Below are positions 49,559-53,407 of a DNA stretch of 64,000 nt, one piece after another. This DNA is from Nitratiruptor tergarcus DSM 16512 (lineage in GTDB: Bacteria > Campylobacterota > Campylobacteria > Campylobacterales > Nitratiruptoraceae). How positions within the stretch are numbered: position 1 is the stretch's first letter; every line of letters starts with the position of its first letter. A program made the position numbers and the translations under genes. Where the stretch lies: assembly GCF_027946175.1 (NCBI RefSeq), contig NZ_AP026671.1, positions 124,001-188,000 on the forward strand, written 5' to 3'. The notes beneath the pieces are model-generated. The model ran no database searches. It had not been told where the DNA came from and was given only the letters and a program-made list of their open reading frames with translations.

Positions 49559-50803
49559 CTATATATAAGGGTGTAAAACTTCAGGGATCTCAATCGTTCC
49601 TTCTTTCGTTTGGTAATTTTCCATAATAGCGATAAGTGTCCTTCCAACTGCTAGGCTAGATCCGTTGAGCGTGTGGACAAGGAGATTTTTCTTGCCATCT
49701 TTGTAGCGAATTTGTGCACGGCGGGCTTGAAAATCTCTTGTATTGGATATAGAGCTAATCTCTCTATATTTTCCCTGCCCTGGAAGCCACACTTCAAGGT
49801 CAATTGTTTTTGCTGCGCTAAAACCAAGATCACCTGTACAAAGCATCACATGACGGTGGGGAAGTCCCAGTTTTGTAAGCAGACTACTTGCACACTCTAC
49901 CATCTCTTCAAAGACATTGTCGCTCTCTTCTGGCTTCGTGATTGCAACGAGCTCTACTTTGTCAAACTGGTGTTGGCGTATCATTCCTCGCACGTCTCGA
50001 CCACCGCTTCCTGCCTCTTTACGAAAACATGGCGTGTAAGCTGTGAGTTTTATAGGACTTTCAAGATCTTTTATAATCTCATCTCTGTAGAGGTTTGTAA
50101 GAGGCACTTCTGCAGTTGGTATAAGATAGAGATCTTCATCACAGACTTTGAAAAGATCCTCTTCAAATTTTGGTAATTGTCCTGTTCCAAGTAGAGTTGT
50201 GCTGTTCGCCATAAAAGGCACGCAAACCTCTTCAAAGCCATACTCTTTATTATGATCGAGCATAAAGTTAACAAGGGCTCTCTCTAGTCTTGCTGCTTCC
50301 TTTTTAAGCACACTAAAGCGGCTTTTGGCTAGCTTTACACCTCTTTCAAAATCGATCCAGCCAAGGCTTTCTCCTAGTTCCCAATGCTCTTTTGGCGTAA
50401 AATCAAACTCTTTGGGCTCTAAAATAGCTTTTATAACAACGTTATCCTCTTCATTTTCACCAACTGGTACATCTGGATCTGGGGGATTTGGGATTGTTAG
50501 AGCAAGTGAAGAGAGTTTCTCTTCTAAATCTCGTACCACTTCTTGGTGTGCTGCAATTTTTCCTTTATTGATTTCAAGCTCATTTTTCAGCTCATTGATA
50601 TCTTTGCCTTCTCTTTTGTAGACTCCAAACATCTTAGATAAGCTGTTCTGTTTTGCCTGAAGTTCTTGCAGAGCTGTTTTTTCTCTTTTGTACTCTTCAA
50701 ATAGTTCTTTGAGTTCAGCTAAGAGTTTCTCTTCAACTCCTTTTGTTTGCAGTCTTTGTGCAATTGTGTCAAAATCTTTTTCTAGTGCTTTGAGATCGAT
50801 CAA
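49559..50803 (-). CDS. serS: Seryl-tRNA synthetase
   Basis: This 414-residue class II synthetase has an N-terminal coiled-coil arm (about 20-105) followed by the catalytic domain with motif 2 [20 protein letters not shown] and motif 3 [23 protein letters not shown] 50803 is chosen because GGAGG lies five bases before it and the protein then starts MIDLKAL, like its homologues. It charges tRNA-Ser. Confidence 0.96.
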
Positions 50804-50849
50804 CACTGCCTCCAATACTCTTTTTGTTAATTATAATGCAAATATGCTT

Positions 50850-51506
50850 TTAAAGGTTTGAATCTTTAGCAAAATAGGCAAAGAGTTTTCTGTGTGGCTG
50901 TATGTAGGGGAGATACTCAGGATGCCACTGCACGCCAAATATTGGTAGTTCTATGTGTTCTATTGCTTGGATGATGCTATTTTTATCTTTTGCTGCTACT
51001 CTTAGACCTTTCCCAAGTCTATTAACAGCTTGGTGATGCAAGGCATTTGCTTTGATGGTGGAGGCTTGGAGAACTTTATGAAGTTTTGTATGTGGGAGAA
51101 TTTCTATAGTTTGGAGGGGTAGAGGAGTGTAGGGGTGATGAAAGGTGAGATCTAAATTTTCTATGTGAGGATGGAGATCGCCTCCTAGTGCTACATTGAT
51201 AAGCTGCATACCTCTGCATATTCCAAAAACAGGAAGTGCTTTTTGGAGGGCTTTTTCAAAAAGAGCAAACTCTAAAGCATCTCTTTTTTTATCACAAGCA
51301 TGCTCTAGATTCATGCCATAGGCACTGGGGCAGATATCTATGCCGCCACTTATAAGCAGTGCATCAAAATCTTTTGGGGGTGTTGCGTCTGGATGGACAA
51401 AGAGAGGTTTAGCACGAGAGAGTCTGAGTAGAAAACGTATAAAAAACCAACTTCTAAGACTCTTATATTTTGAGCCAGTTACAACAATCCGTTTTTCTCG
51501 AGCCAC
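50850..51506 (-). CDS. Class-I glutamine amidotransferase / gamma-glutamyl hydrolase (C26)
   Basis: This 218-residue protein has LISGGIDICPSAYG, GICRGMQLINVALGGDLHP with the nucleophile cysteine, ALHHQAVNRLGKGLRV and FGVQWHPEYLPY with catalytic His and Glu, as in PuuD-like gamma-glutamyl hydrolases. The only usable start is GTG 51506, giving a 28-base overlap with the amidoligase gene. The pair suggests it releases or recycles a gamma-glutamyl or isopeptide product made by the amidoligase. Confidence 0.85.
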   Translation of the reverse strand: MAREKRIVVTGSKYKSLRSWFFIRFLLRLSRAKPLFVHPDATPPKDFDALLISGGIDICPSAYGMNLEHACDKKRDALEFALFEKALQKALPVFGICRGMQLINVALGGDLHPHIENLDLTFHHPYTPLPLQTIEILPHTKLHKVLQASTIKANALHHQAVNRLGKGLRVAAKDKNSIIQAIEHIELPIFGVQWHPEYLPYIQPHRKLFAYFAKDSNL

Positions 51507-52447
51507 TTGTAAACTTTATCTATCCAAAGATCTTTGATAAACCATAGAGGTGTATGTTGAAATTCCTGGTATTCATGCATGAGATCATATAGCTTTTGCT
51601 TATCAAATGCCACTTTTTCTACAAGGCTCCATTGATTGAACTCAAATGCGATGCTCCAGGTAGGATCATCTATTTTTGAGTTTGGAAGGCGGTAGTGAAA
51701 AGCCGGTCTTGGATTTAATTTTTGTTCCGGTAATTTTTCTTTTAGTGAAGGCTCTATAAAAATGAGCAGTGGTAAAAGATCCAAAGCTCTGTTTCTTGTC
51801 GGATTGTAGAAGATATAATCATTGGCAAAATGCTCAAAATCTGGAGTGTATGAAAAATCTAAAATGAGATCAATATACTCCTGCTCAAATGGTTCAATAA
51901 ACCATGTGAGTTTTCTTGTGAGGTCCACATCGATTTTTTCGGAAATATAATCTTGTAGTAGTACAAAACTGCGTAAAATATTTAAAAGAATTTCTGCTTC
52001 AAATGAAGGCGCCTCAATATTGATATGCATTCCAAAAGCGTATAGAGTTGATGCACCTGTACCAAGGGCTCCATTTTTGCGAAGATTTTCTTTGAGTTGC
52101 TCTATGCTTTGGAGTTTATTAAAAGGAATTGGTGGAGTGACGATCTCATAAGGAATAACAAGCTCGGACAGAGAGTAGATAAGTTCTTTGAAAAGATCAA
52201 AATCTTTAAAGAGATAGTGCTCACTTGTTTTACGCAAATATACTGAATCAAGATAAATTGAAAAATCTCCAAACTCTGTCTGTTTGATGATGGTTTCATA
52301 CTCATCGACTACTTCTACCTGGCCGCCAAAGAGGCTTTGAACAATATGAGCACACTGGAGAGGTTTAAGTCCAGCATACTCTATCTCAAAGCCCGCTTTT
52401 CTAGTTTGGCCATTCGCATTTTTTATAAGGGGAGGCAGCTTGAACAT
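51479..52447 (-). CDS. Putative amidoligase (PF12224 type, glutamine-synthetase fold)
   Basis: This 322-residue protein matches the amidoligase_2 pattern: RKAGFEIEYAGL near the N-terminus with the first acidic ligands, YEIVTPPIPFNKL at about 100, GMHINIEAPSFEAEIL at about 140, and LDLLPLL and RPAFHYRLPNSK blocks later. These enzymes are inferred to form amide or isopeptide bonds with ATP. It is fused in an overlapping pair with a class-I amidotransferase and preceded by a 77-residue protein, a context described for novel peptide-modifying systems. Substrate unknown. Confidence 0.8.
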   Translation of the reverse strand: MFKLPPLIKNANGQTRKAGFEIEYAGLKPLQCAHIVQSLFGGQVEVVDEYETIIKQTEFGDFSIYLDSVYLRKTSEHYLFKDFDLFKELIYSLSELVIPYEIVTPPIPFNKLQSIEQLKENLRKNGALGTGASTLYAFGMHINIEAPSFEAEILLNILRSFVLLQDYISEKIDVDLTRKLTWFIEPFEQEYIDLILDFSYTPDFEHFANDYIFYNPTRNRALDLLPLLIFIEPSLKEKLPEQKLNPRPAFHYRLPNSKIDDPTWSIAFEFNQWSLVEKVAFDKQKLYDLMHEYQEFQHTPLWFIKDLWIDKVYKWLEKNGLL

Positions 52448-52677
52448 TAGATCTCTTTTGGACAGCTCATCTCCACAGAGATTCTAATCTCATCGCCCTC
52501 TTCATAGGCGTAAAATCTATGTTTTTTGCACCAATTAGCATTGGCGTGATTTGCAAGTCTAAGCGCTTCAATTTCTGCTTCTTCTTTCGTTTTAAAACTT
52601 TTATTGAGCCATTTTTCATGTAGAGTCTCATCTTTTTTTGCACATCCACACATCTTATCCATAACAATTTTATACAT
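52447..52677 (-). CDS. Small conserved-looking protein beside the amidoligase
   Basis: This protein of about 76 residues starts at ATG 52677, behind GGAGG, overlapping the crcB stop; its end overlaps the amidoligase start by one base. It has an N-terminal MYKIVMDKMCGCAKKDE and further cysteines in NWCKKH and EMSCPKEI, with lysine-rich stretches. It could bind metal, or serve as the substrate or partner of the amidoligase. No family recognised. Confidence 0.65.
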   Translation of the reverse strand: MYKIVMDKMCGCAKKDETLHEKWLNKSFKTKEEAEIEALRLANHANANWCKKHRFYAYEEGDEIRISVEMSCPKEI

Positions 52678-53063
52678 CACAAACCTCCATAAATTTTTTT
52701 GAAAAGTATTATAGCAGCAAATGTTGAAGAGATTGTGAGCGTGACATTGAGGATGATATTTAAAAGCCCTTTTAAATATAACCCCTCTTGAAAAAGCAGA
52801 AGAGTTTCCAGGCTAAATGTAGAAAATGTAGTAAGTGCTCCCAAAAAACCGGTCACAAGCATAGCTTTGTATAAAGGATTGATAGTCTGCTCGAAATAGA
52901 GATACAAAAAACCTATGATAAAACTTCCAAGTACATTGACTGTAAGCGTGCCTACGGGAAAAAAGAGGCCACTTAGTTTTTGTACATAGGTTGCAATGAG
53001 GTAGCGGCTGATTGCTCCAAAAAATCCCCCGATACCTACCGCCAAAACAGTACTAAAGTTCAT
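52677..53063 (-). CDS. crcB: Fluoride exporter CrcB/Fluc
   Basis: This 128-residue protein has four transmembrane helices. GIGGFFGAISRYLI at the start, TLTVNVLGSFIIGFLY with the conserved Asn, and VTGFLGALTTFSTFSLE with the Phe-box are Fluc signatures. It lowers cytoplasmic fluoride. The gene before it encodes a DUF190 protein, a frequent partner. No fluoride riboswitch is possible here because trpS ends 10 bases upstream of that partner. Confidence 0.93.
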   Translation of the reverse strand: MNFSTVLAVGIGGFFGAISRYLIATYVQKLSGLFFPVGTLTVNVLGSFIIGFLYLYFEQTINPLYKAMLVTGFLGALTTFSTFSLETLLLFQEGLYLKGLLNIILNVTLTISSTFAAIILFKKIYGGL

Positions 53064-53407
53064 TGCTCAAACTTTGGATGTTTGTAGAGGAGCACTTCTA
53101 TATCTTCAAGAGTCACTAGTGCTTCAGTGAGCATTGAATCGATGCTATTCAAAAATCCTCGTATCTTAGCCTCGCTATCAATCATCTCAATAATAAGCGG
53201 AAGCTTTTGACTCATACTCCAAACATTGAAAGTATGTATTTCACTGTGGGCTCCCATTCCTGCTGCTGCTTTGTAGACAGTAGCACCAGCGACACCATAC
53301 TCTTTTGCTTGATGTAAAATTGCCTGCCATAGAGGTTTACCATTGCTTCTATCGTCATTGTCTATATAGATTTTGAGTTTTTTTCTGTTTCCTAAGTAGC
53401 GTTTCAT
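53060..53407 (-). CDS. DUF190 family protein
   Basis: This 115-residue PII-like fold protein has LKIYIDNDDRSNGKPLWQAIL, VAGATVYKAAAGMG and SQKLPLIIEMIDSEAKIRGFL. DUF190 proteins recur with CrcB and may regulate it. It overlaps crcB by 4 bases and follows trpS by 10. Confidence 0.85.
   Translation of the reverse strand: MKRYLGNRKKLKIYIDNDDRSNGKPLWQAILHQAKEYGVAGATVYKAAAGMGAHSEIHTFNVWSMSQKLPLIIEMIDSEAKIRGFLNSIDSMLTEALVTLEDIEVLLYKHPKFEQ

Follow-up and report, generated by a model that had tools for sequence, protein, structure and literature searches.

Does the small cysteine-containing protein encoded next to a predicted amidoligase and its amidotransferase-like partner belong to the same biochemical unit, and what might the enzymes do together? 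The locus lies in a window of 64,000 nucleotides from Nitratiruptor tergarcus DSM 16512 (positions 124,001 to 188,000 of contig NZ_AP026671.1), where the genes follow one another on the minus strand, in the sense of transcription, in the order der, trpS, a DUF190 gene, crcB/fluC, SML, ALIG, GAT and serS. Here, SML is our label for the small protein of 76 amino acids, ALIG stands for the amidoligase and GAT for its partner with the amidotransferase fold. The features, in window coordinates, are as follows.

53060..53407, minus strand: DUF190 gene (PF02641), upstream of CrcB
52677..53063, minus strand: CrcB/FluC fluoride channel gene, immediately upstream of SML, given for context
52447..52677, minus strand: SML, small protein of 76 aa with CxC...CxxH, a putative metal site; co-located, judged to lie outside the ALIG-GAT unit
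51479..52447, minus strand: ALIG, GS-fold amidoligase of 322 aa (PF12224, Amidoligase_2), ATG start
50850..51506, minus strand: GAT, predicted Peptidase_C26/PuuD-like hydrolase with the class-I amidotransferase fold, 218 aa, GTG start
49559..50815, minus strand: serS, flanking GAT downstream

The three open reading frames claimed in the original prediction (50850-51506, 51479-52447 and 52447-52680) are present on the minus strand and their overlaps are real: ALIG and GAT share 28 nucleotides, with the GAT start inside ALIG; SML and ALIG overlap by one nucleotide in TAATG; and the CrcB stop overlaps the SML start in TGATG. Relatives conserve all three at the protein level, so these are not chance reading frames. 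The cysteine protein had been described as 77 residues long; the protein and its CxC are real, but its length is likely to be 76 residues, the start being most likely the ATG of 52677 and not the GTG one codon upstream, since relatives keep the sequence MYKI while the codon before it varies (GTG, GTA, ATA, CTG or TTA). Further upstream, the DUF190 and CrcB/FluC genes (52677-53407) also overlap and are found together in nearly all relatives, an association that points to a DUF190 function connected with fluoride export. One close relative carries a nucleotidyltransferase/HEPN pair of the MNT-HEPN toxin-antitoxin type inserted between trpS and the DUF190 gene (L047, 6587-7284), and an HEPN-like gene also occurs in a second relative (L046, 6526-6909).

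ALIG and GAT form a conserved, overlapping and co-diverging two-gene unit. A profile search of named genomes retrieved 61 ALIG loci, spanning Campylobacterota, Balneolota, Bacteroidota, Thermodesulfobacteriota, Pseudomonadota and Acidobacteriota, and 58 of them have a GAT relative immediately downstream, 56 identified automatically and two (L105 and L146), in which a long open frame masks the gene, recovered by inspection; in the other three, GAT is absent beside ALIG. Among Campylobacteria, the two genes adjoin in 19 of the 20 genomes with ALIG, the 20th ending at a contig end, and in an independent sample of 299 genomes from another phylum, that of genome G321, in 12 of 15. The pairing of amidoligase and amidotransferase that had been described for this locus is thus borne out well beyond it. 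Wherever both frames were cleanly called they overlap (42 of 42 loci, by 4 to 64 nucleotides when the longest frame is taken), and in a mirror-distance comparison the pairwise divergences of the two proteins are correlated (r = 0.88, with none of 1000 permutations as high), shared ancestry contributing to the figure. Such constancy suggests that both proteins work in one pathway or one complex. Iyer and colleagues (2009, Mol Biosyst 5:1636) reportedly put forward the broad concept of GS-like amidoligases working with hydrolases, predicting associations with peptidases, and are reported to have noted an association with GATases more widely. For phages, an association of amidoligases with GATases has been noted already (PMC10580990), and the present survey defines the pair better.

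Around this unit, no third gene or gene cluster recurs across lineages; judged by eye from the sequence, the neighbours are unrelated housekeeping genes (aspS, prfB, a deaD-type helicase gene, and HI0933-like and phoB-like genes). Oxidase or dehydrogenase genes of a catabolic kind keep no consistent company with the pair, unlike in the puu or atd clusters. Potential functional clues from neighbours, namely RidA-like (L142), EctA/EctB (L088), aldehyde dehydrogenase (L174) and MBL-fold (L149) proteins, were set aside as each is confined to one lineage. About eight ligases have no linked GAT; placing these on the tree takes five changes, one of which is a contig-end artefact, and this speaks against a single ancient branch of solo ligases and for loss or separation of GAT several times. 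On plasmids, 11 distant ALIG matches were found, part of them paired and part solo. In Azospirillum, a solo amidoligase gene overlaps a response regulator gene that is followed by a sensor kinase gene (L194, 3058-5924), an arrangement unlike the GAT-linked form.

The assignment of ALIG to its family is clear: it matches PF12224 with an E value of 4.4e-69 and 233.5 bits (curated cut-off 22) over profile positions 2-244 of 245, and all 45 of its relatives match the family too. Across these 45 sequences the invariant residues include R16, E21, E23, D67, E101, N143, R178, R218, D223, R247, H251 and R253, among them those expected at the ATP/metal site (E21, E23, E101, N143, R178, R218, R247 and R253). 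Loss of the acidic residues of the ATP site had been named beforehand as an argument against a working amidoligase; E21 and E23 are kept throughout. From what is generally known of the GS family, and not from a superposition, we take the strand with GFEIE and the motif GxHIN to be those expected for its metal and nucleotide sites; on the same grounds, a catalytic role is suggested for the invariant acidic and basic residues. The AlphaFold model of ALIG is confident (pLDDT 92.4, pTM 0.90), and its top matches in the PDB are GS, plant glutamate-cysteine ligase and YbdK, with the 43 best-ranked all being GS, GCL, YbdK, PafA or relatives; these matches are consistent but weak, the best E value being 4e-3 with TM below 0.4. 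Among viral models, phage amidoligases match best, with E values down to 3e-6. The predicted fold would thus place ALIG at the level of the superfamily, and the view of it as a divergent branch of the GS superfamily is supported but not proven. No NCBIfam synthetase model matched and the protein is not PuuA-like in sequence; among solved structures, the only sequence match was a short one to a fibronectin-binding protein (E 4e-4), which we judged spurious.

GAT matches Peptidase_C26 (PF07722; E 2.6e-44, 152 bits, cut-off 20.5) and, at a lower level, GATase (PF00117; E 9.8e-19), and each of the two profiles is matched by all 35 partner proteins. Its catalytic triad, C97 (codon 51216-51218), H195 and E197, is invariant in these 35, as are the motifs GGxD, RDxxE, GICRGxQ, N[SA]xHxQ and HPE. 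The nearest solved proteins are Lin1909 (3fij), entries named as probable glutamine amidotransferase (7d4r, 7d50 and 7d53), which we take to be Pseudomonas SpuA, and PuuD (6vtv); GMP synthase subunits rank behind all of these. GAT falls below the NCBIfam cut-offs both for the PuuD equivalog, gamma-glutamyl-GABA hydrolase (NF008471; 73.6 vs 266 bits), and for gamma-glutamyl-CDP-amidate hydrolase (62.8 vs 250 bits). By sequence, then, GAT leans to the C26 hydrolases of the PuuD/Lin1909 group and away from synthetase subunits; of the two names that the original prediction offered for this gene, gamma-glutamyl hydrolase fits better and amidotransferase less well.

We consider it most likely, at about an even chance, that ALIG makes an amide of the gamma-glutamyl type and GAT hydrolyses it, the two forming a self-contained metabolic unit in which SML is neither substrate nor partner. 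As far as family membership can tell, ALIG would activate a carboxylate with ATP, the likeliest being the gamma-carboxyl group of glutamate or of an acid like it, and couple this group to an amine; its co-translated partner from Peptidase_C26 would cut gamma-glutamyl amides by means of its Cys-His-Glu triad and thereby either free a finished product or stop the amide from accumulating. In the Nitratiruptoraceae, the unit sits within an operon of housekeeping genes, with the DUF190-CrcB-SML block on one side and serS on the other. Three things favour this ligase and hydrolase reading: GAT belongs with stand-alone hydrolases; about eight ligases do without it, which fits a ligase working without a glutaminase subunit; and pairs of a GS-like ligase with a GAT-like hydrolase are known. 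In AtdA1/AtdA2 (acting on aniline) and NpaA1/NpaA2 (1-naphthylamine), a gamma-glutamyl-arylamide synthetase is encoded beside a GAT-like hydrolase of its product, and AtdA2 keeps the toxic gamma-glutamyl compound in check (PMC11335346); the putrescine pathway of E. coli similarly has a GS-type gamma-glutamyl ligase, PuuA, and a gamma-glutamyl hydrolase, PuuD (PMC9397018). The genes at our locus are predicted to have the arrangement of the Atd and Npa pairs, and GAT, like PuuD, is a member of Peptidase_C26 with PuuD among its closest solved relatives. The parallels have their limits, however: AtdA1 is a classical GS-type enzyme (GoaS) while ALIG belongs to PF12224, no dioxygenase genes accompany ALIG-GAT, and the Puu proteins form a multigene pathway with oxidase and dehydrogenase genes. 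PF12224 enzymes being only distantly related to synthetases of the PuuA/AtdA1 type also weighs against the gamma-glutamyl reading as such, and so do the weak fold matches of ALIG to solved GS-family structures and the lack of consistently accompanying catabolic genes.

The strongest competitor, which we regard as a real though less probable possibility, is glutamine-dependent amidation on the model of MurT-GatD: GAT would hydrolyse glutamine and pass the ammonia to ALIG, and ALIG would use it to turn a carboxylate, on either a metabolite or a peptide, into a primary amide. The very features that define the unit, the near-obligate adjacency, overlapping frames and correlated divergence, are typical of synthetase and glutaminase subunits, and such tight coupling would favour a glutamine-dependent complex; the match of 35 of 35 partners to PF00117 points the same way. 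Yet the closest relatives of GAT are stand-alone gamma-glutamyl hydrolases, PuuD and Lin1909, whose CRG and N[SA]xHxQ signatures it shares, and the ligases that stand alone would have no ammonia-supplying subunit beside them.

It is improbable that the pair serves in the modification of peptides, the cell wall or the surface, a scheme in which ALIG would attach an amine or an amino acid to some peptide or wall constituent, for GAT to trim. The idea draws on the phage amidoligases, which share PF12224 with ALIG and are its best structural matches: cell-wall modification has been proposed for them (PMC10580990, citing Iyer and colleagues 2009), and a similar role suggested for phage amidoligase/GATase pairs. 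However, the phage GATase reported in PMC10580990 belongs to class II (PF13522) and differs in fold from GAT, which is of class I/C26; the sequence of ALIG was matched by none of the phage records searched; and the pair has no conserved neighbour among wall, peptidase or export genes.

The original prediction went further and allowed that SML could be substrate or partner of the enzymes. On such a reading, SML would serve ALIG as its protein substrate or, like LysW, as a carrier, and GAT would take the modification off again. At home, the case looks good: SML adjoins ALIG in all 16 Nitratiruptoraceae genomes with both (within a set of 40 relatives), it is the best conserved of the three proteins in that family (mean identity 78%, against 64% and 57% for the other two), it ends there in a conserved SCPKE tail, and across 298 Campylobacteria genomes the co-occurrence of SML and ALIG is above expectation (Fisher p 2e-6), if phylogenetically clustered. 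The same 298 genomes nevertheless tell against it, with SML in 65, ALIG in 20 and both in 14, so that 51 of the 65 SML carriers lack ALIG and six of the 20 ALIG carriers lack SML; outside the Nitratiruptoraceae the genes are adjacent in none of the seven genomes with both, and SML touches ALIG in that one family only. Elsewhere, SML lies by queH (L064, L066 and L154-L156, QueH confirmed) or by unrelated genes, or as a tandem pair between trpS and serS (L065). Most telling is a genome of family f4 (G148), which groups with the named Hydrogenimonas loci in the tree: it keeps the order trpS-DUF190-CrcB-SML-serS with no ALIG-GAT there, its ALIG and GAT being at the ends of other contigs, and the apparent trio is therefore a pair plus a neighbour. 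Conversely, in G017 ALIG-GAT follows CrcB without SML, no remnant of which was seen in the 178 bases between. In the phylum of G321, none of the 299 genomes has SML and 15 have ALIG, a weak absence as the search was run without an SML positive control. SML is thus separable from ALIG-GAT, and the simplest history is that their side-by-side placement arose in one lineage. While the pair holds together, the trio does not: SML is routinely unlinked, a LysW-like system, with its small metal-binding carrier encoded with the ligase, is not matched, and a role as substrate or carrier is very unlikely. A version confined to the Nitratiruptoraceae, in which SML was recruited as a carrier or target, its C-terminal tail modified by ALIG and restored by GAT as a lineage-specific analogue of the LysW type, seems to us more doubtful still.

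We regard SML as an independent small protein that probably binds metal. Of its four cysteines, C10, C12 and C50 are invariant in 41 relatives, together with H53 and F55, and GCCGGGHC or SCCGNGCC forms the C-terminus of many relatives. Searches against Pfam and NCBIfam gave no family at a meaningful score; HolB_lid was hit weakly by 3 of the 41 members (best E 3e-4), a match judged to be chance. In the model (pLDDT 86.9), a single strand is followed by a long helix and a further two strands, and no fold in the PDB matches it (best E 1.4). Among the genomes sampled, SML represents a separate, uncharacterised family of Campylobacteria only (loci L154-L173 and L038-L045 besides that of the window). 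In some genomes it is present in up to five copies, some of them in tandem (L065, L173).

Removing SML as the substrate does away with a false lead and flags an uncharacterised, putatively metal-binding family in its own right. For the amidoligases, it reduces the question to two genes that form a clean unit, the overlapping hydrolase coming from a family with known gamma-glutamyl chemistry. Amidoligases of PF12224 occur widely among bacteria and phages, and our searches found no record of a solved structure or proven substrate; with so clean a unit, comparing the metabolomes of strains with and without the two genes could show directly what the substrate is. In three genomes of one Campylobacterota genus (L088, 2733-3985, and also L090 and L092), the ectoine genes ectA and ectB lie next to ALIG-GAT in divergent orientation. 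Marine or halophilic organisms are numerous among the other carriers of the pair, and this may be a hint of an osmolyte.
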